Below the pieces are notes generated by a model that was not told where the DNA came from, ran no database searches, and saw only the letters and a program-made list of their open reading frames with translations. A program made the translations under genes and the position numbers. A DNA stretch of 37,778 nt from NCBI GenBank assembly GCA_034696485.1, contig JAQIWT010000083.1, forward strand, positions 1 through 37,778, read 5' to 3'. Positions 15,601 to 37,778 of this stretch are shown piece after piece. Source of the DNA: Isohypsibius dastychi. Taxonomy: Eukaryota; Tardigrada; Eutardigrada; Parachela; Isohypsibiidae. Position 1 is the stretch's first letter, and each line of letters begins with the position of its first letter.

Positions 15601-18523
15601 TCCCGTGTTGGCTCATAAATCAACTAATTAAAACAATACTGAGGTAAGCAAATTACCCAACAAAATTAATTTACCCATTCCGTGGCTTCAAACAGTTTTA
15701 CATCCAGAGGGTCACCTGACAGGTGACCTTTGATCAAAGTTAGCGAATGACATGTAGCCATCCCTTTGATGACGGACGAACTGGGATCCATTTTCTCAAC
15801 GTCAGAAATCATATCTCCCAAGGCACCATCAACAACAGGTACCACTCCCATCAGATCCAAACCTTCTTCCGTCAGAGTACCGGTCTGAAAAATTCGATGT
15901 ATAACACCAACTTATCTCTTCCAAATCTGGATATCAAACCTACCTTGTCAAAACAAACCAACTTGATTTTCCCACAAACGTTAATGCGGGATGGACTTAT
16001 GCAAAATATATCCTTCTTTTTTAATCTTGCTTGTGAATAAACGACTCCAACCGTTAACGCCGCTGAGAAGAAATGAAGATGAGAAGAGAAACTAACAGCC
16101 ATGTGCAAACACCTACCGGGTAAAGCAGGTGGCACCACGATCGTGATGAGGTCCAGCGCACGCAGTACCATCAGCCCTAATTCCTAAAATGCCGAAACAT
16201 AAATAATCCATCTAACGGATATCTGCATGAGCTTGTCACTTACTCCACGTTGCGCGTACAGGTAAGTAGAGTAGCACATTCCACAAACAGCTATGCCAGC
16301 CTATGTTTAAGCACAATATCATAATTCTGAAAGGTCATTCGCTATTCACTTACCATAACGCATACCAACCGCAAAGCATCTCGATTAAACTTGAATCCCA
16401 CAGGCTTTGGGAACAATATCGACCTGACCAAATCACCTTTCACGGTGTAGAACCCTGCGAAAAGCAAATATTTAATCAACGCAATATCGATAGCGTCCGA
16501 ATCAGCCAGATTTGACTTAGAAACTTTTTTTGCTAAAAAGGAACACTTGTCAGTTTATGCAATGTCTTACCTGTTTCAAGAACTACGGCAAGAACATTGG
16601 CTCCTCCATAATACCGGGTCTATAAAAAGAAAGACCATATGAATATCTCCATCAGCGCGTCAATTCGAAGGAATAGCTCACCTGAATAACGGTTGTCCCA
16701 TGAAATAAGATATGCTTTTTATGTTCTTCTTGCGAAAATTCATCGGTGTCATGGGCATTCAATGCAACTTTCGTGATAGGAGCACTTTCACCTGCGAATT
16801 TCAAACAAGATCGATATCGTATTTGCATATATATCCAGACCAAAACCTACCGGTCAGAACTCCTTCGTTGACTATGCAATTTCCTTCAATCAACACAGCA
16901 TCACATGGCATCCGGCAGCCATGTTGCGGAATAACAATGATGTCGCCTGAAAACACTCAGTTTAGATTCGTGGTTCAGCGAGTGCAAAGTCATAATCTCA
17001 TCAGAATAGCGCAATCACTGAGTCATAGCTATAAACTCTTACCCGGAACAAGCAGCTTTGCTTCGCATTCCACGAGTTCTGAATAAAAACTGATAAATCA
17101 ACCGGAAGACACAAAATTCCACAGAGACTTACCGCCCTTTTCACTGACTACCATAAAATTCTCCGAGGTGGAAGATTTCAATACCATTTCTCGGAGCCGA
17201 AACCGTTGCTATAAAAGCAAATTCAAAGTTGAATATACTGACTCAGAAAAAACCATTTTTTTGAGTGACCAACCGTACGAACTGTGTGCAGGCTGATCAT
17301 AATTCCAAACAAAGAAACGGTAAGTACACATGTGGCATATATATAGTAGTTGTCCAATGACCACAGGATGATACAGAAAATTTGGAAGCAATAAAACGGG
17401 TTCAGGACCTGCAACGCAAGAAAGCTAATTTTCTAAAACATTGAATTTGGGCGTGAGATCCAACCTCTTCAAACAAAAGCCGATGAATAGCTCTGATTTC
17501 GATGTCAATCAAATTGCATCCAAAAAACCGTAATCTGGAATTAAAGTTGATATTGAAGACAAAGCCAGCGAATTGTGCATAGATTTTCACTTTTGCCGTC
17601 GTTCCGTGGGAGAAATGCCGGTTTCCCGAGAAAGAAGATCACCACATTTCAAGGAATCGGAAACGCCACTGAGAAGCTTGAACGTATCATCCACCGAATG
17701 CCAAGCATATCGAACATATTGGTGATCAAAAATGCGAACGCTGTACTCCTTAACTGCAGCGGCGCATCCCTCGACAACTTCCGGTCCCTTTCCAGCCGCG
17801 GGTTCACTCAAACATCGATGATGTAAAAGCTCAACTCCCAACGGCTTTCCATTCTGGTTTGATTTCTTTTGTGGATCTTTCTCGATGATACGATGCGAAA
17901 CAATGCAAAACTCGCCGACATAGTCATCCCTGAAAGCAATAACGTTCAACATCCATATTCAAACTGCACGATAAAATTTTACATCGAGGCTGGATCCGTG
18001 TCAATAACGCGGGTCAGAATCTCGTAGCAAAAATAATCGTTGTCAGAATCCTGGAAAATACTCTAGTTAGACCCAAAAAATACACCAAAGCAATCATATT
18101 TACCTTCAACAAAACTGCAGAGGCGTCCTTCAAATCACACCGGATCCGCCGGATGGAATTCGCCCAAGTTGGATGCCATGATAGAGCAATATAACCAAGT
18201 CCAAGAGTAGTGATTCCAACAAAATGATAAAGGAATGTCCGAAGAAATGTAGATTTATATCCCCAACATTGCTGAAGAGAGACCTCGATAAAACCACTAT
18301 TCTGAAGGCTGCGCTGGAAAGCAACTTACAAGGTGGCCTTTAAAGCCATCTTCCAGAAGCTTTGGTACGAAAACACGCTTGCTTGGTCGATATTCGTGAC
18401 CTTCATCATGAAGAGGAGCCGCATCTGAAAAAGCAAGAAAAAGGGACGCTACTATCGGAAACAAGAATCAAAATTGGTTCAATCGATTTTACTTGGGTTA
18501 TCAGGGTTAACAGCAGCTGACAT
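12693..18523 (-). CDS. ATP13A: P5B-type ATPase, ATP13A2/ATP13A3-like
   Basis: Multi-pass P-type ATPase of the P5B group. Characterised members (ATP13A2, ATP13A3) export polyamines from late endosomes and lysosomes. The gene has about two dozen small exons. The start at 18523 gives [10 protein letters not shown]. The N-terminal spike-type membrane domain includes [20 protein letters not shown]. The actuator loop has [10 protein letters not shown], split by an intron near 16800-16851. The M4 motif is PPALP (near 16130), the P5B form rather than P5A PPELP. The phosphorylation site [20 protein letters not shown] is split by an intron at about 15885-15945. Further on are KGSPE (about 15370), MVTG, and the hinge motif CGDGANDCG (about 14290) with [20 protein letters not shown]. 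The C-terminus carries KPDWPPV before a polar tail. All catalytic motifs are intact. Which vertebrate paralogue is closest is not clear. Confidence 0.93.
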
Positions 18524-23350: not shown

Positions 23351-26300
23351 TCAAGACATTTCTTTGTACTCCTCCCTCAACGTCCACATCCCAACCCCAT
23401 TTCTCTTCTGAAACGAGCATATAATCCTCAGAACAGCCCGAAAAAGTGTTGATTCCTGAGTTGGAAGCTGCGACCGGAATTTGGCAATCATGATTTCGGA
23501 AGTTGCCTCGCCGGGTGTGTCAGTTTCAAAGTTCAAAAACTGAACCATTCGACGGGCAAGCGCGAGATTCTCCGGAGACGCAAATGTCGATATCTTCGAA
23601 TTTGGATTCTGGCCGAAATTCACGTAATCCTGCGACTGGCTATTTTCCTGACCGACAGAAGATCCCGAGCTCGTATCGTCTGGCCGCGCAGAAATCTTGC
23701 GGATTTGTGAAAGCAGTTGTGACGCGCTTGGAGGAGAGTCGTCTTCAACATCATGACCTTTTGGAAAAACTCGTCAGAGACCTTCATTCCACTAATCTTT
23801 AACCTGCATAATACCTAAAACGCTAAATGCCTGCCCAGTCCAATTGGGTATTCCACTGCTGGCGTCATGACACAGCTTCCGAGACTCGCGAATCACGCGC
23901 ATTGCTTCATGTGCCACCTTCTCAGCCTCCTGCTCTAAAACAGCGTGGTCCTGATCTCCGCCGTTTGCAACGTCCTCAAAGGGAATAGCTGAATGCACAG
24001 GAGTTTTCTTGAAGAGCTTTCTGAGAATAAAGTCATCATTGTGAGCTGGGAGCATTTCCGCCTCGACGGGAGACTGATACTGTTCCCTTTTCGCCAGGAA
24101 CTCCACCATTTCACCATCCACAGATTTTTCCCGTCGTCCAAGTTTATCAGATTTCATCTAAAAGGTGAATTTAATTATCTCATCCCCTGCACATAACGTT
24201 CTCACGTATCATGATTTGCAACGCAAAGAAACTCACCATTTTTGATCCAGCACTTGAAGTAGGGTCCAGATCGCCGTTTCCAATTTTCTTGCTGATAGCT
24301 TTTGCCATCAGCCTTAACTTTTCTTTGGGATCGCGGGCTTCCTTCAAATCCGGTTTGGTGGACCCATCTCTATCTGGCAGAACTCCGCCAAAACTCGCCC
24401 CGGTTTCGGTCAGCTCAGTTTTCTCAGGTGGCGCCAGTGTGAACAGTTCGTGGAGATCATTGTGCTTGAAAAACCGTTTCTGCTTCGGATCTTTGAGAAC
24501 ACGATTCGTTAAATACTGCTTGAAAATCTGACGATGATAAATCTTTTCTTCGATTGTTCCAGCGCACAAAAGTCGGTATATTGTCACATTCTTCGTCTGA
24601 CCAATCCGCCATGCCCGTTCTCGAGCCTGCGGACAAAATCGAGCGTGAAATCAGGTTTCATGAGAAGTAGAATAACAATAGTCACCTGAGTATCAGTCGA
24701 TGGATTCCAGTCGGGATCGAAAATAATAACTCGATTTGCACCGGTCAAATTTACACCTAGTCCGCCCACTTTTGTAGTCAAAAGAAATAGAAATGTTTCG
24801 GGATCCTGGAAACACTGGGTCTTGAACACAAACCGACTCATGAAAAAACGGGACTGTTACTTCATTGAACGATTTGATCAAACTCTGGCGCTTTTGAATT
24901 GCTGTATTTCCATCCATCCTCAAATAACTATATGAAGAGGTCTGGACGAACTGTTCCATAACGTCGAGCAGCTTGACAAGACATACAGCTGGAAACGAGT
25001 CATTGGTGAAGTGGATTAATGAAAATCACTGACCTTCCGGCTTTGCGAAAAAAGCAACACTTTGTGACCCTGACGCTTCCAGATCTTTAACAACGCTTCC
25101 ACCACAATCATCTTCCCTGACCGCCGCCAGTACCCAAATTTCTGCTCTTCCTCGTTTGTCACAATCGGCTTTCCGGTTCTCGTGTCGAGAAACGTTTTCG
25201 GGCCACCATCAATAAGGTCCGGATGATTACACAGTTTCCGCAATTGCATCAATCCGACGAAAACCTTTTCAAACGAAGGGTCATCCAAATTCCAGCTGCA
25301 GCGGAACAAAGATCAAATGTCACCTGCAAGCTCCCATGCATGACGTTTTTCAACTCATCAGAATCGAGATATTCCTGGTACAGCTTTCGCTGATGATCGG
25401 TCAACTGGCAGAATAGGACCTGCTCATCCTTCTGTGGTAACTGTATGCAAGTTTTGACATCCGCTTTGCTTCGACGTAAAAGATACGGAGTAATAGTGTC
25501 CTTCAATACCGTAGCGCATTTGAATGCCGTTTGCACCTGCAAAATTTCCGGTTCAGCACAATAAGGCTAAATTCTAAGCTTGAAAAGTATGTACCTGGAT
25601 ATCAGAGGCCATTTCGCGTGACCCTTGAATTATCGGCACGCTGAACTGTTCGAGGAAAACGTTCATGAGGCCTAGCTTCCCCGGGTATGCAAAGTCAAAA
25701 AGTGACCACAACTCTTTCAAGCTGTTCTGCATTGGAGATCCAGAGAGTATTACCCGATGAGGGGTCCGAAACTAATTGTGGAACACAATTAGTTAACTGG
25801 AATTTCCAAAACAAACATAAAACCCGACGGCCCGCATACCTGCTTGCATGTGATCGTGATCTGACTATCTGGATTTCGAATTTTATGACCTAAAGAAACT
25901 CCAGTCAGCGTTGACCTGTTAGTCTATATTCCATTAATGTCCTCAAACCTTCGTCCAAAATGACATAATGCCATTTTTCCTTCAGTAAGACATCCTGGTA
26001 GCAAAGCAGGCCTTGGTAGGTAGTCAATAAAATGGCGTTTGTTTTCTGGGCCATCAGTACCAGAGATGACTAAGATAATACAACAGAGCTCAGTTCGGGA
26101 AGAAATGACAGAATTCGAAACTGGGAATGTCGATATACCCTGGTTCCGGTGTGAGAGCCCGAGGCGTGAAGAATCATGACACGAAGGGGTGGCCACCACT
26201 TATGGAATTCGTTCAGCCATTGAAACAAAACTGTGGCTGGGCAGACAATAATACACGGGCCAAGACCCGAAGCCCTGAAAAGTTCGGAAGTCAGAGGCTT

Positions 26301-27573
26301 GTTAGATTTTCCTTGCTTCGAAATCACCGTTGGCCGGAATCCCACAATCGAGAGTGATGAAGTCCAGCAAGAAATGCGATAATCTGAATGGTTTTCCCAA
26401 GGCCCATCTCGTCGCCCAAAATACCTCCAACTTCCTGACGGTGTAGTTCCCATAACCACCGGACACCGGCTTTCTGATACGGATATAATTCCGTCCAAAT
26501 TTTACGCGGTATCCTTAAGCCCTCGGTCAATGTGATATCTTCATCCGAAAAATTCTCTTCACTATGTTCAGCAGATTTCGATTCCTCATACACTCTGCCA
26601 AAAGCGGAATACTATCGGTTACCTTACCGTTTCGAAGTTGTCGCCTGAACCTGCAGAAATGCTCACCTTAATCGCTCAAAATAAAACTTCGAGTCCGAAT
26701 CGTCTCGGGTTCCTTTTCGTGATCGTCTTCCGGCCACATCTTCGTCAGCATCCTCATCTACGGCAAACAATTTCATACAAATCGCCGCTTTGTTCAATTT
26801 TTGTTTGAATTTCAAGTTAGTATTAAATTATGGCATCAGTACTGTATTTCCATCACCGACCTTCGGAAACGCTTTCTTCGTCAACGTTTGAATCTACTTC
26901 GTCGGATTCGTCATCAGAGACAATAAATTTCTTTTGTTTCTTGGGCTTTCGAGATTGTTTGCCAGATGGAAACTTCCGTTTGGCAGAACTAAACTGAAGA
27001 GCATTACTCCGAGACTTTGAGAGCGAGGACGTTGTAAATGATCTTGAATAAGATGGTTTCGGATCGGCAGATCTAGATTTCATCCGACTTTCTTGGTCAG
27101 CAAGATAACGCTCGATGAGAGTATTTCCAGGACTTCGGGAAGCAGACTTTGAGCTTCCAGGGCCTAAACTTGAATCTGTGATTGGCTGGACAGCTTGGTT
27201 TACAGCATCTGTTCCACCCGTAAATCTACAATTATAGGTCATTCGAATGGTCCCAAGAACAAATTATAAGTAAAATATCATACGCTTTCTTATGTCGCGA
27301 CAAAGCCTGTTCTTCCAAACACTTTTCCGCTTGAGCAACGACACCAGCTTCAAGGTCTTCTTGATTGAAAACCTGAAGTCCGAGATTATCCAACACCGTC
27401 GAGTCCTTCGACTGAGCTTGTGGAATGAGGGAGACATCAACACGGAAGGGCAGATGTTCTTCGGAAGAGTTCCCAACCACAACATTGGTGTTTTGATCTT
27501 CATTCCATTCAGGGACGCTCGGTTCAAGTCCCTCTTCTTCCGATGGATTGTCACCTGAGACAGCTGCGTTCAT
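23351..27573 (-). CDS. ERCC6: ERCC6/CSB SNF2-family ATPase
   Basis: Swi2/Snf2 ATPase that recognises stalled RNA polymerase II and starts transcription-coupled repair. The start at 27573 gives [20 protein letters not shown]. The N-terminal segment [20 protein letters not shown] matches the CSB leucine-latch region. A basic, serine-rich linker follows. The ATPase core shows [13 protein letters not shown], motif [37 protein letters not shown], motif [12 protein letters not shown] (DEGH, intron-split), [61 protein letters not shown], and [11 protein letters not shown] leading into [32 protein letters not shown] continues the Rad26/CSB-specific region. The C-terminal ubiquitin-binding-type tail ends [31 protein letters not shown], like human CSB. 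All helicase motifs look intact. It is divergent from THUMPD1 with 270 bp between starts. Confidence 0.95.
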
Positions 27574-29113: not shown

Positions 29114-32100
29114 TCAACCTTCGCAAAACGACATCATTGACAAAATAGCTCGTTCCTGGCAAATAGCGGCCAGTTCCTGGATAAATTCGTTCAACAAAAC
29201 GGCCGTCAACGAAAAAACACGCAGACGAGTATCCGGCGGAGGAGCTTCGGGTAACGCGCTATTGCGTCTCGAATACTTCGTCGTTCGCCTGTCGACTTCG
29301 ACAGTTTCTAGCTGCGCTTCGTCGTATTCCGAAAAAATTCCGTCGACGATCATTTCTTCCCGTATGTTGTCACCTGACTTTTTCTGATCCCGCCGCGAAT
29401 AGTTGCCAGATGGAAGTTCCGTGGACGGTGAGCCAGCTCGAGCAGTCCGCAGAATCAGCGAGCAATAGGCTCGCTCGATCATCAACCGGCCCAGCGGCGT
29501 CTTCGGCACTGCGGAATCCACGGCCACTTTGAGTGAATCGATGATCTAAATGTACGCCAAATTTACTAACAACCAGTTCACTAGCTCTAAACAAAATACC
29601 GCACCTGAACAAGAGATCGTCCGGCTGGATGGTTTTCAGAATTTTCCCGAAAAATAAAATCCCACAACTGCCCATGAGGCAACAACAGCACTTTGCTGAT
29701 CAAACCAAGCAGCTGGATGTTGTAATAGAGATCCTGCTCGAGGATATGATCCAGCTTGTACAATAAGCCGGCGATAAACGGCCCAATAAACTTGACTCCG
29801 TGAAGTTCCAGTTCTGCAAAAACTTTATTACGTCTGACTTCTAAACAAGAAAAATTGAAAAGAATTAAAAAATACCCGGAAACAGAGCAATTGCTTTGCG
29901 CGGCCCGAACTCTTCCGAAGAATACACTGATTCCTCAATCACCGTTCCCCGTCGCGGCCTCGTCACGCCATATGCGTCCCAGCATTTTCGAATATTCTGC
30001 CGAGCCGAAATAAGATAAGGTATGTATCCGGGAAGCGCCAGGATGTCATCAGGAACCGTGGGAATGGCTTGTTCCGAAGTTTTCTTTTTAAACAGCTTTT
30101 TCATGAACCCTGTCTCCTGAACTTCCGGTACCTCCCGTGGCTCGATCACAAATCCCAGCTCTTTACAACATTCAGGTGCAAGCGATAGTATTGCTTCAGC
30201 CGTTGCCAAATCATCCCACTCGTTAGAAGTCCCAGTTGACTGAATCCCGGAAGACGGTCGTGCTTCGCTTAAAAACCTGAGTGGATCGTTGTTCAAGCGA
30301 TAATCTTTGTGCAGAACAATCCAAATGTTACCTGAATATGAGATGATCAAGAAGCGGCTGGTAATGCATGTCCATCAATGTTTGAACCAAAGATATTGTG
30401 ACAGTGGCCACCTGAATGAAATTTTCTCCTTAATTATTCAGACAATAGTTAGAACTCAAATAAAATAACCCTACTTTTGTATGGCTGTTATAAATATTCG
30501 CGACAATGTAGTCCACCAAAAGGCGATCGCCGATCCCTGTGGTAATTAAATACTTCAACAGAGCGCTTCCTATTTGTCTGTCTTGAAGGGTCCGGATCAC
30601 ATAATCAAAATACGCAGTGGCCACTAGTAGATCTTCGCCAAATGTCTAGAAATTAAACCAGACGTTAACACCAAATATCATCATTCACTGCCAAAAATAC
30701 TTTGGTCAAGGCAGGGGTCATGACGTCCATCATGAATTCTATGAACGAATTTCACAGGTGATTACGAATACCTAACCAATCAAAATTCGACCACTTACGT
30801 TCTAGGCACAGCTGCACTAGACGTTCCTGAACAACCGGATGCGAAAGCTGAAAACTGGATTTGTACATAGCGGAATTTTCAAGGAATACCGAGTAATTAC
30901 CTGCATAACCGCATTGCAAAACTCCATAAACTCGGTAAAATGCTGCAAGTCAGGAGAACAAGCGACATCGTTGCTGTCGATGCGGGACCAACCAGGGTAA
31001 TATGCGCCGACACCTCTTTTCGGCAGTTGGAAATAAGAACGACATAGACCATCAATAAGAACCTGTCGAGCAATAGGTTTAGAATACATCAATTTGAAGT
31101 AAAAACAAGCGCAACACCGAAAATTCTCACCACGCATAAATGAGAGCTGTTCGCAACATGCTCGCAGAGAAGATCATCCCCTTGAATCACCCTCAAAATA
31201 GCGAGGACGGCGCTTCGGGCCTACGAGAATACATGTCATTAATGGAATGAATATTTGAGCAACGTAATCAAAGAATTACCAGCTGTCCTGTTTCGCTGCC
31301 ATTTCCGATGTGTGGATAAAGATACGAGAGCAACCGGAAACTAAAACATGAACATCAGTTGCAAAAACATACATTTTCCGGACTCATGCAAGCTGACAAA
31401 CTCACTCCCGAATTACATGAGGACCATCCTCCAGCTCTGAATCGTCCACCTCCACAAAAAACTGCAATAAATCAGGTGCTTGCTTCAGACAGTAAGTCAA
31501 CTCGTTTATGACGGCCATCATCTTTCGGTCAGTATCCTCATGTCTTGAAAACGTCACAGCGTCAAAAACTGCCAGCATCGGAAGAAGAATAGATTCCTGT
31601 GAAATCAAACGCGGATCCTTCAGACATGACGATACAAGTGTTTCCAGGATTCTCAACAGATTCCACCGGAGCATCAAGGCAACAGGTTCAGGAAGCTGCG
31701 GGTGAGTCGCATATCCGACAATGCGGAGGAGAACAGAATTCACGATAATGTATTCCAAAACTTCGTCTTCGAGCAATATTAGGGTATCTTGGCTGGGCGA
31801 ATCTGATCTGCAACAAAGAATGTGCATCAGATTAGATTGATGTTAAGTCTGCAATGTATTTTTCCGTCGTGGTTGGTTACTTGAAACTGTGTTGATCCAA
31901 CGTGGAATGAGACTGAAGTCGGGCAACCGCGGCGGCCAAGGAAGTTATAACCTTCAAAAGAATGAAGACATGCCAGAAAGTCCAGTTTGTTTTGGTTTTT
32001 AAATTAAAGAAAGCATGGACATACTTTGTCAAACCAGGCGGTAAGTTTATCTCGAACATCCGCACGCTCCAAGTCTTTCACTAAAGCAGATACGTCCACA

Positions 32101-33194: not shown

Positions 33195-36100
33195 TCAAAT
33201 ATCAAGCGTGCTATACCGCAGTTTTAAATACCGATCTTGCATAATAGCTACATCTTTTTTCATGCTGCTCAACCTTCTTTCCAAAGACTGTAAATCGGCG
33301 TCTATGGCTTTCCTGTTCAGATCAACGCTGTTCTCCGGGGTCAAAGATTCCACAGAGACACGAGCAGTAGAGTGATTCAAAAGCGGCGCAGTTTCTTCCC
33401 CGTCTTCCTCCTGAATCGTTTCCGGTCTTTTAGCTGAGACTCTCTTCTCCATTTGCAAGAGATTATTGTATTTCTCCTGCATTCTCGCAACATCGGAATT
33501 GACGGACATCAACTTTGACTCCAAAGACTTCACATCCAAATCCACAATTCGACTGGACCCGGCTGATGCCGTAACCTTGCCCCTCAAAGGTGGTTGGAAT
33601 TCCCAGTCAGCCCGCTAAAATCAGTCGCTATTATCACAAAACGGATTCTAAAAAAATCGCCCAGTTACCCGGAGAGCGAAGATCTGATCGGAAGACATGA
33701 CCTCCAGCGTTTCAGGAGGATTGCAGAGCACATAGCGCTTTGTGGAACTTGAATCAAGTAACCGGAATAGTCCGAGGACAACAAGGCCGTATGAGACTAG
33801 CGCATCCACAAATAAGCCACCGTAGAACGAACCCTACAGAAAACGCAATATTGAGTTTTTTGTGAATAACCCAGCTGTATAATTGGTCTCTGGCTCGCGT
33901 CAAAAATAAAAAAGTCAAGCGAATACTTTTCTTATCTTTTCGTTTAACATCGATTGTGCTTACCGCATGTATAGCCAATGGTCCATTTTCTACTGCAATC
34001 TGAATGACAGACACCTGGTCCGTGTTTTCTTTTTTCTTCGAAATGTTTTCGCCCCCGATGAGACCGGCACCTTCCGCTAGAATACGTTCCAGTTCCAACG
34101 AAGCGCCACCGAGAATGATAGTGTTGATCACTTTGATGATGGTGGGATTGAAGAACGATGTAATCGTCAATAAATCCAAAACGCTCCCACCGAATGCGCG
34201 TCCGCCCGCATACGGTTGTGTCAGATAAAAAGCGGTTCCCGGTAGATCCTCGTCTTCGTCGTCCAAAAAGGCCACATTAGATTCCTTCGCTAAATTCAGA
34301 TACCAAAATCACCATAGCTCAGTAGGAACAGGTCATCGGTGTCCATCGCTCACCTAAATCAGTGATAAGCGGAACATCGTTGCCGACTTTCCGATCTGGT
34401 TTGAATTCAGATTCAAACAACGAACTGGTGCTCGAGGGTTCTCCCGCAATTTTCAAGGTTCCTTGTTGGCCTATATCTCGCTCAGCTTCTGAAAACCTCA
34501 TAGCCCGGACATTCAGTGTTGCAAGAATAACCCCTTTATCGAGCATTGATGGATCCGTGACCTTTTCACCGGTGCTCGATGCGCCAAGTATCACGCACTA
34601 CATTAATAAAAAAAAATCTTAGCGAATGTAAAATTTCATGTGTAAGCGACTCACCATTCTGCAAGTGTTCAGCTGGACAGTTCGCAAATCTGAGCGATTC
34701 AGCGCGGTACCCTAAACGTTCAATAATCGCGATACCTGATATTTAGACAGCCGCGATATGTTCAAACTTACCTTAACAATACAAATTTTCGGAAGGTTGT
34801 ACAAATATTTCCATTCTTTCTCAAGAAATTTCGGATCGCCGAGAATGACGATCTCTTTCAAATCAACGAACGGTATCACGCTTGACCGGAGTGGTAGCAC
34901 GAAGCTCGCCAGACCAAGTATCTGGGAGTTTGGCTGCGACAAAACGCAAACCACAATATGATCCCGAAAATACCGCGCTCTGAATAACTCTGTCATCAAT
35001 GTGAAACACGTGCAAAGAAAGTAATCTTTCTTACGCCGCTTCTTTTCGAGTCTTCAAAAAAAATCATTTAAATGAAAATCGCTATAAACACTTTCGGCAA
35101 TAATCAACTGATAATCACCTTGATCACACTTCCGATTGGTCTAGCCGGTGTCCAGTAAAACATACCAGTTGAATCATAGGTGCATTGAACATTTGCACTA
35201 CCAGCTGCAGTGGTAGCTGTCGTTTGTGAATCGTCGTCGGCACTGATGATGCTCGTGTCTTCCTCTTCTTGTTTTTTGGCCAATTGCTCCATGCTGCCAG
35301 ATGGGCTATGTTATAATATGACAGTTAAAAAAAGACAGGTAGCCATAATAATTTACATAATAATTACTGTACATACGTGTTCGGATATTGACAAATGTAG
35401 GAATATATTTTAGCTTCGACTCCAGTTTCGTTGATCTTCGAAATTGTCCGGGCCAACACTGATGATTGAGCAGCGAGTTCCTTCAGGGTACTCAGTCCTT
35501 CCAGCAGTCCCTTTGTTTCTGAATAAAAGAAACTCTTCATTATTGAATGACCTCATGCTTTATATTAAGGAAAACTGAAACTGAGAATATCCCTTTACCC
35601 ATCTGACAGCTGCATTTCTGAATCAGCCGAGCGTCTTCAATGCCCATGTGGCATCTGGTGCAGTAATATTGAGCTCTTCAAAAAAATCAACGATCACCCC
35701 GAAACTTAGTCCAGAAACTGGTTGGTTTACCGATCAACCTCACTTGTCGAGTCTGCAATGAAATATCCAACAGTCCCTTCCATGACGATACTAGTCGGCT
35801 TAGGATTTATCATAGGAAATGAGCATGAATCCTTAGGGTTGTCTTGGATGGCCAGTAGTACTATTTTCAATCTTCTATAGCAGAACTCGCATGCCTGCGT
35901 GAATGTCATTCCAACAAACGCTTCGCTAAACGGCCGACAGTATAATTCGAGAGCACTGCCTCTTTCATAATGCTCCAAATGTTTCTCCTTTTCGCGATAC
36001 TAAATATAAAGAAAATCAGTGTAAATCAGTTTTGAAAGTTAAAAGGTCATGTAAGGTATTGGGTCAATGCTTCGGTTAAATATTCACATTAAACTGTCAG

Positions 36101-37778
36101 GGCAGTAATATCGAAACTGGTTCTTGAAATATTTATATACCTTTTTCTGGGAGTCAAACGATCGGGTTGTAAAGAAGTTCGCCATCAAAGTCGAAAACCC
36201 TGGCGCCAAACAGCTCTGTGCCAATAAACCCAGCCTCAGTTCCGCCACTGCAATTACATCGAAATTAAATCCTTTCACACCATCATTATTAAACACTTAT
36301 TAACTCACAGCATATAACAATATCCCCGTGGTTCTCAGGTTTCCAGCTAGGAATGTTTTGAAGATAGGCCTTAAAAACACATCCGGTTGCCAATTATGCC
36401 AAAACTGCCAAACCGGTTGTCTCACTTTATTGTGATATTGCGCGAGCTGGACGATGATCTGGGTGTCATCTTTGTAGTTCTTCAACGACACTACACGCAT
36501 TATATCTGAAAGAATAGCATTTCACGTGAAACGTCAGCAATTAATTTATTTTTTACTGAGTTTTAATATCGCACAACTTACTTGCCGCATCATGAGCATC
36601 CCCATCGCTTGCTGCCCTGTCCGCTGAAAAAACAAACATATTCTAGATGTTTTGGAAACCAAGTTTCTCGACAAGAGATCGACTGCTTTAAATTAATACG
36701 TGTGAGTTGAACTTACCTAAAATCAACACGGCTTTTGCATCTGCAATTTGAACACGATTCAAATCCTTAATGTTCATCACGGTTCCTCGCAGATAATCCA
36801 GTTTAGTGAAATAACGCTCCTGAAGGATTTGCATGTCTTCGTCCGGTCTGTCTCTGAAAATTAGATACTGGTGGTTCAGTTGACTTTTTGACTTATCCGA
36901 TATACTCTGATAGAATGACGATCTTGAAAAATTCGGATGTATCGCGATCCGGGTGCTGCAACAACGGAAATCAGGCAAGGACAAAAATTAATCAAGTTCC
37001 AAATTGTTTTGGCACAGAATTTCAAACTTGACTCTGACTTACGTACATAAAACTCTTTCAAGAAAGTCTCCATAGAACTAGCGGTTATTTGCTGACCGCA
37101 TACTACTATGTGGCTGCAATATTTCTCGTGAAATGGCGTTAATCCAGCAAGATACTGCAATGTCGACTCACATGAACATTCGGGATAAAGTATAGCTGGA
37201 AAGCAATGTCTGCAAATTGGTGAACAACATAAATCAAGACACCCGTACTCTTTGTCATAATCAGGTTTGATCTTGAACCGAGCCACAATTTGCGGTATGG
37301 CTTGACCAACGATTCCCTGAAAACAACAGATTAATGAGCCTAAAAATTTTATGAGTAAACCAGTAATTAATAAGTACACGTGGTATTAATTACCAAAGCG
37401 AGAATCTGGAAAGCGTAAATGATTACGCGGCCCATCATAGTGTGCATCCGCATCATACTCAGGTCCAGCAACGTAATGCGTCCGTAAACATATAAAAAAC
37501 ATCGCCAGAAAATGATGTTCTGACCGTTGTACAATGGTACTCCATCTTTTGGATCGTAGAGAAAAGGATCACCCAAGTTCTCCACCTGAAATTATGCTAA
37601 TTCGAATATGATTTGATTCAACTAGACCGCAATTTCAAAAAGCGTTAACAACTACCTATCTGTCAGATTTGATACTTACCAAATGCAGAAATCCTGCTGC
37701 AATCATCATAACGCCGAAAACAAGAACGATGAGCCTTATAAGGCGGACGGTATTCACTGATTTTATTATCCGGCGATA
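33195..37778 (-). CDS. SLO1-like: Slo/BK-like channel with altered pore filter (5' end outside window)
   Basis: The window starts inside S5 ([20 protein letters not shown]) and runs to the stop at 33195. S5 ends [13 protein letters not shown], as in BK. The pore exon (37393-37586) keeps FWRC and the S6 start GR at BK spacing, but the filter position reads LLDLSM instead of TVGYGD. S6 ends [12 protein letters not shown]1: [103 protein letters not shown]2: [29 protein letters not shown], and the Ca2+-bowl [12 protein letters not shown] with YLTQPYAGG. The tail after [14 protein letters not shown] has two heptad-rich segments ([40 protein letters not shown]), likely coiled coil. The fold is certain; K+ conduction is doubtful. 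Confidence 0.92.

Follow-up and report, generated by a model that had tools for sequence, protein, structure and literature searches.

A family of tardigrade proteins, probably derived from Slo1, in which the K+ selectivity filter is replaced

Introduction

The TVGYGD selectivity filter is the defining feature of K+ channels, and the selection of K+ needs four matching filter strands. In the genome of the tardigrade Isohypsibius dastychi, an initial annotation made from the sequence alone described a Slo/BK-like channel gene whose filter is replaced. Such a locus raises two questions: whether it is a decayed or wrongly assembled gene or one that is maintained with a changed pore, and, if maintained, what its product may do.

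Gene structure and pore

The window, that is, the whole stretch of DNA analysed, is a complete contig (C83) of 37,778 bases from an assembly of 30.4 Mb in 1648 contigs. The 3' part of a Slo1-like gene lies on its minus strand, running from position 37778 to a stop codon at 33195, and is cut before S4 by the contig end. Spliced alignment to Slo1 produced two gene models with local disagreements. Manual inspection decided between them and fixed where the linker exon (35518) and the last exon begin. The model has 21 exons (the first partial) separated by GT-AG introns, and no premature stop was found in its 1006 codons. Neighbouring genes on the same strand are represented by a RAI16-like piece (31402-31842) and a piece of an SNF2-related helicase (26070-26501).

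The partial first exon (37680-37778, minus strand as for all features below, donor gtaagt) encodes the end of the S4-S5 region and S5, with S0-S4 lying beyond the contig end. The next exon, also placed by spliced alignment, carries the turret, the pore helix, the replaced filter and the first half of S6. It occupies 37394-37585, one base inside the initial annotation (37393-37586) at each end. The introns on either side are 94 and 77 nt long, GT-AG and in phase 0, and their positions are the same in the canonical Slo1 gene of this genome. As initially described, the exon aligns to Slo1 without gaps from FWRC into S6, and by direct reading and this alignment LLDLSM (37454-37471) stands at the TVGYGD position. 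The corresponding human Slo1 segment reads VTMSTVGYGDVYAKTTLGR. The turret is longer than in human Slo1 by seven inserted residues, in line with the annotation. No filter motif occurs in the other frames of the exon or in the flanking introns; the further statement that the other frames meet stops did not hold for one of them, which is free of stops for 60 codons, most of the exon's length. When the full window was searched in six frames for [TS][VIL]G[YFL]G, the sole match was a minus-strand TLGLG at 18208, a long way from the gene.

The second half of S6 and the following linker were placed at 37243-37316 by spliced alignment and junctions, with an uncertain 3' junction: the 129 nt between 37242 and 37114 are open in frame and may be an intron or 43 extra codons. 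RCK1 follows in seven exons (36141-37113, spliced alignment) with the equivalents of D362 and D367 present; its Pfam domain, PF22614, is below cut-off in the window piece and above it in the orthologues. The RCK1 C-lobe (BK_channel_a) occupies two exons (35599-35999; PF03493, 1.9e-11), and the RCK1-RCK2 linker another two (35119-35518), joined at in-frame GT-AG junctions chosen by hand. RCK2 spans six exons (33669-35051; PF22614, 1.1e-10) and includes the Ca bowl (34237-34269), where alignment identifies the equivalents of D895 and D897. The first RCK2 exon is a micro-exon of 17 nt (35035-35051, TRKEA) with GT-AG splice sites. The last exon (33195-33614) encodes a C-terminal tail of two similar, amphipathic-looking repeats, judged by eye to be probably a coiled coil, and the stop codon.

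Slo1 paralogues in the same genome

A second, canonical Slo1 gene was found on contig C434. It has TVGYGD and a DDDDD Ca bowl and is 60% identical to human Slo1; its model covers human residues 20-1056, the linker being rough. The window protein is 42% identical to the C434 protein and 39% to human Slo1. On C853 (5220-9900) there is a divergent Slo1 paralogue that keeps TVGYGD but no longer has the Ca-bowl aspartates or the S6 proline. Both this protein and that of the window are Slo1-like and far from human Slo1 (32% for C853, 39% for the window), but they have changed in opposite ways. A further Slo1-like gene with TVGYGD, on C867 (12742-14116), has an altered S4 with H at the R213 position; its model stops within S6, 190 bases short of the end of the contig. 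A search of the assembly with canonical S0-S5, made for the missing S0-S4 of the window gene, returned C434, C867, C853 and a weak match on C797. Searches with two filterless relatives (P0004 and P0123, see below) found no second filterless gene, matching only C83, C434, C853 and C867 in an assembly that may itself be incomplete.

Filterless relatives and their phylogeny

The spliced product had 5603 matches among 5.77 billion proteins searched, and the best 120 were examined. The top four of these are all tardigrade and all filterless (FL): P0001 (Paramacrobiotus metropolitanus, 62% identity to the window protein), P0002 (Hypsibius exemplaris, 60%), P0003 (H. exemplaris) and P0004 (P. metropolitanus). 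Two pore-only searches gave five matches among 118 candidates and three among 436, and added P0121 (Paramacrobiotus), P0122 (Hypsibius), P0123 (Ramazzottius varieornatus), P0124 (Paramacrobiotus) and P0125. The last contains pieces of subgroup FLb (see below) with the pore exon read in the wrong frame; it is a mis-modelled fragment and was dropped from the counts. The same replacement is thus present in eight proteins, all database gene predictions, from three named tardigrade species (four from Paramacrobiotus, three from Hypsibius and one from Ramazzottius), which bears out the initial reading of a Slo/BK-like protein with LLDLSM in place of TVGYGD. Two of the checks suggested with that reading, related species and a second Slo1 gene, spoke for it.

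The motif T[VI]G[YF]G[DE] is present in 116 of the 125 proteins retrieved, and the nine without it are the eight FL proteins and P0125. The two pore-only searches (118 and 436 candidates) returned no FL-type pore from a named non-tardigrade. A filterless Slo with a different loop is possible elsewhere, since it was the best 120 of 5603 matches that were examined. Across the nine FL rows, window included, TVGYGD is absent throughout and the loop has the consensus T-[LW]-[LI]-D-L-S-G-x-R. Its D, L and S are invariant (9/9), the G is found in 8/9 (M in the window), and the arginine two residues after the G position is again present in all nine.

In a 20-row tree from which the pore columns were excluded, the nine FL rows form one side of a branch with full support (100/100). 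As this tree had two long branches, the C853 and C867 paralogues, it was rebuilt without them, and the FL branch was recovered with the same support (100/100) in the resulting 18-row tree, again with pore columns excluded. The root was not inferred, and the trees were built without Slo2 or Slo3 rows. Four subgroups are seen: FLa (the window protein, P0001 and P0002), FLb (P0121, P0122 and P0123), FLc (P0124) and FLd (P0003 and P0004). Support for the order of the subgroups is only moderate at two branches of the 18-row tree (90/94 and 88/91). FLa, FLb and FLd each include both Paramacrobiotus (Macrobiotoidea) and hypsibioid species. Because of this, the duplications that gave rise to these three subgroups, together with a single replacement of the filter, would on this tree be older than the split between Macrobiotoidea and hypsibioids. 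The window gene is not a lone oddity, but belongs to one (FLa) of at least four tardigrade subgroups.

Several features of individual entries were seen alongside. The C-terminal repeat tail of the window protein is specific to FLa, with related tails in P0001 and P0002. For each of the FLb proteins P0121 and P0122 the annotation places a SURF1 domain ahead of the FLb part, in a single protein of about 1850 aa; these are either read-through gene models or a real fusion. FLa and FLb entries have the same listed longest-contig size within each species (1912070 in Paramacrobiotus, 354596 in Hypsibius), and therefore FLa and FLb may be neighbours in both. P0003 carries a reticulon-homology domain (PF24456, residues 1254-1408) at the end of FLd, which was not found in its Paramacrobiotus orthologue P0004 and probably reflects a fused gene model. 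Seven of the eight relatives are named calcium-activated potassium channel in the database, a name that is probably wrong for their function; P0123 is listed as hypothetical.

Conservation and predicted structure of the pore

Among the nine FL rows the pore helix plus loop has a mean pairwise identity of 0.75, the highest of 14 segments, followed by values of 0.73 for the Ca bowl, 0.72 for S6, 0.68 for S4 and 0.67 for RCK1. Against eight canonical Slo1 rows the same segment has an identity of 0.23, the second lowest after the S6-RCK1 linker (0.18). S5 and S6 have mean identities of 45% and 28% to the canonical proteins. The S6 was initially described as conserved relative to BK, which is not what these values show: it is conserved among the FL relatives. 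Taken as a 27-residue window, the pore ranks 52 of 992 in conservation within FL. When only pairs from different subgroups are compared, its rank is 84 of 1034 (5 of 38 with non-overlapping blocks); the highest-ranking windows then fall in the gating ring, parts of which are better conserved than the pore. Columns fixed in both groups but different between them are enriched in the pore (9/29 versus 65/911 elsewhere, Fisher test p = 2e-4), a partly circular test, since difference was the reason for choosing the pore. As judged by these identities, the new loop is under constraint and not in decay, and the initial argument against simple decay is supported: the gene shows no sign of it. The initial proposals of a non-conducting subunit, a dominant regulator of another Slo channel or a calcium sensor are hypotheses, and the conservation of the loop would point at least as much to a new function for it as to a dead pore.

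A structure of P0124 was predicted with AlphaFold2 from an alignment of 28 proteins, eight FL and 20 canonical. It has S5 at residues 271-300, a pore helix at 321-333, then a loop, and S6 at 345-373, although the 20 canonical rows may impose a K+ channel fold on the model. Block pLDDT is 81-91 from residue 321 to 360 and then falls to 73 and 48; over the whole model the mean pLDDT is 65 and pTM 0.56, with RCK1 poorly predicted. Foldseek with this model gave 770 matches at E up to 10. In the best 50 of these, Slo1 entries fill the first 47 places (best E 1.2e-20), and the remaining three are Slo2.2 or an entry with the title potassium channels. TM-scores normalised by query length reach only 0.22-0.40, low values that are put down to uncertain placement of the predicted domains. 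In this model the re-entrant loop seems to persist in the FL proteins.

Voltage sensor, calcium sites and domains

In all eight FL rows with S4, the R213 equivalent is N, the R207 equivalent is lost and R210 is kept. An excerpt of PMC12218146 cites work in which gating charge is carried only by R210 and R213. At the Ca bowl, D895 and D897, given as the side-chain ligands in an excerpt of PMC4319557, are kept in all seven FL rows that reach the bowl, and D898 is lost in all seven. D367 is kept in 9/9 FL rows. The E535 position is uninformative: E is found there in 2/7 FL rows and also in just 1/8 canonical rows.

In each of the six FL proteins given to Pfam (P0001-P0004, P0121 and P0122), PF22614 (two stretches), PF03493 and PF21014 are above cut-offs, and RCK1, BK_channel_a and RCK2/Slowpoke_C occur in the order of Slo1. 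When single pieces of the window were used, PF03493 and the RCK2-piece PF22614 passed the cut-off and the RCK1-piece PF22614 and PF21014 fell below it. No ion-channel domain was found by Pfam in the six FL proteins. PF07885 scores 58 bits with the pore region of C434, and gave no match at E 1 in the two FL pore regions tried.

Function and alternative explanations

The FL proteins very probably represent a functional family in which the filter has been replaced. Alone, they would almost certainly have no K+ selectivity, because the selection of K+ needs four matching filter strands. The retained Ca bowl and gating ring suggest that FL proteins may be regulated by Ca2+, which we consider probable, and the stripped S4 suggests that their voltage dependence would be weak. 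The new loop and the FL-specific S6 are strongly conserved, which argues that the pore may still have a job.

The best explanation overall, to which we give a probability of about 0.5, is a Ca2+-regulated FL assembly whose re-entrant loop would have a new job. A family derived from Slo1 (BK) in tardigrades would have had its K+ filter replaced once, as the tree suggests, before it split into at least four subgroups. Its members keep the S0-S6 plus RCK1-RCK2 layout and the two Ca-bowl side-chain ligands, and have lost two of the three S4 arginines. Ca2+ binding to the gating ring would still move S6, FL subunits would assemble mainly with each other, and the loop would do the work of the pore, as a new filter with a ring of Asp and a ring of Arg outside it or as a Ca2+-controlled plug. 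Against this explanation, a plug or scaffold role would likewise conserve the loop, and the window protein departs from the family at one loop position (M for G). For assemblies made only of FL subunits, in which the loop would have become a new element for permeation or closing, the odds seem a little short of even. A more specific version, in which FL proteins are Ca2+-gated, largely voltage-insensitive channels that pass something other than K+ (as non-selective cation or as anion channels) through a ring of T-L-L-D-L-S-G-x-R loops, is tentative and on the doubtful side.

In the main rival reading, FL subunits would act as silent modulators, entering tetramers with canonical Slo1 of the C434 type and lowering or changing its current. 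By analogy this is conceivable but unlikely: the genome also encodes a canonical Slo1, and the gating ring and S5/S6 layout are retained, but the silent Kv subunits keep GYG, whereas a filterless subunit would be expected to abolish conduction. S5 and S6 also differ strongly from the canonical proteins, and a dominant negative would not need four subgroups that share one loop sequence. Another possibility is a Ca2+ sensor that is not a channel: its pore would stay closed permanently, and its gating ring, anchored in the membrane, would signal to partners. The loss of the filter and of two S4 arginines with the Ca-bowl ligands kept would fit such a role, as would the extra C-terminal repeats of FLa, but the high conservation of the pore helix plus loop and of S6, both near the top of the 14 segments, is unexpected for a mere anchor, and we judge this reading to be quite improbable. 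Assemblies of FL subunits with each other are thus favoured over both silent partners of Slo1 and a non-channel sensor.

A pseudogene, an assembly error or a missed alternative pore exon has next to no probability. The contig does end inside the gene, and the gene model includes several manually chosen junctions. However, the reading frame is open for 1006 codons over 21 exons, and at 42% identity to C434 any decay would be old and visible. The flanking introns of 94 and 77 nt are devoid of the filter motif, and an assembly error or alternative pore exon is in particular very unlikely, given the same replacement in eight proteins of three named tardigrade species.

No description of filterless Slo proteins, in tardigrades or elsewhere, was found among the papers listed from the open-access literature, with subscription papers mostly outside the scope of the search. 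A calcium-activated potassium channel is reported in an excerpt of PMC5531438 (2017) to be duplicated in both Hypsibius and Ramazzottius; that excerpt does not mention the pore of the duplicated channel. It also suggests that calcium takes part in tardigrade signalling during drying, and FL genes are candidates in this signalling, as a matter of speculation. Tardigrade Slo paralogues that have lost the filter, with the loop and Ca-bowl ligands preserved, amount to a natural experiment on repurposing a channel scaffold, and their function can be tested directly in H. exemplaris, a laboratory animal.

Comparison with known channels

The closest known system is Slo1/BK (KCNMA1, slowpoke), with structures from Aplysia (7rjt and 5tj6), Drosophila (7pxe) and human (6v22). 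FL proteins share with it S0-S6 followed by RCK1-RCK2, the D367 site, D895 and D897, the S6 proline and a CxxCH segment, and P0002 (Hypsibius FLa) scores 718 bits against Aplysia Slo1. They differ from it in having [LW][LI]DLSG (LLDLSM in the window) for TVGYGD, in the loss of R207 and R213, in A at the S6 G311 position, in the longer turret and, in FLa, in the C-terminal repeat tail. Slo3 (KCNU1) has a Slo1-like gating ring and retains the K+ filter; the FL gating ring is nearer to that of Slo1 (P0002, 540 bits to 3mt5) than to that of Slo3 (383 bits to 4hpf). Slo2.2 (KCNT1), a Na+-regulated K+ channel with a six-helix pore module plus RCK1 and RCK2, scores only 67 bits with P0002. By score, P0002 is nearer to Slo1 than to Slo3 or Slo2, the trees being without rows for the latter two. 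The silent Kv subunits (Kv5, 6, 8 and 9) modulate Kv2 current with their GYG filter in place; a modulatory, non-conducting role is possible for both them and the FL proteins, but the FL proteins are without GYG.
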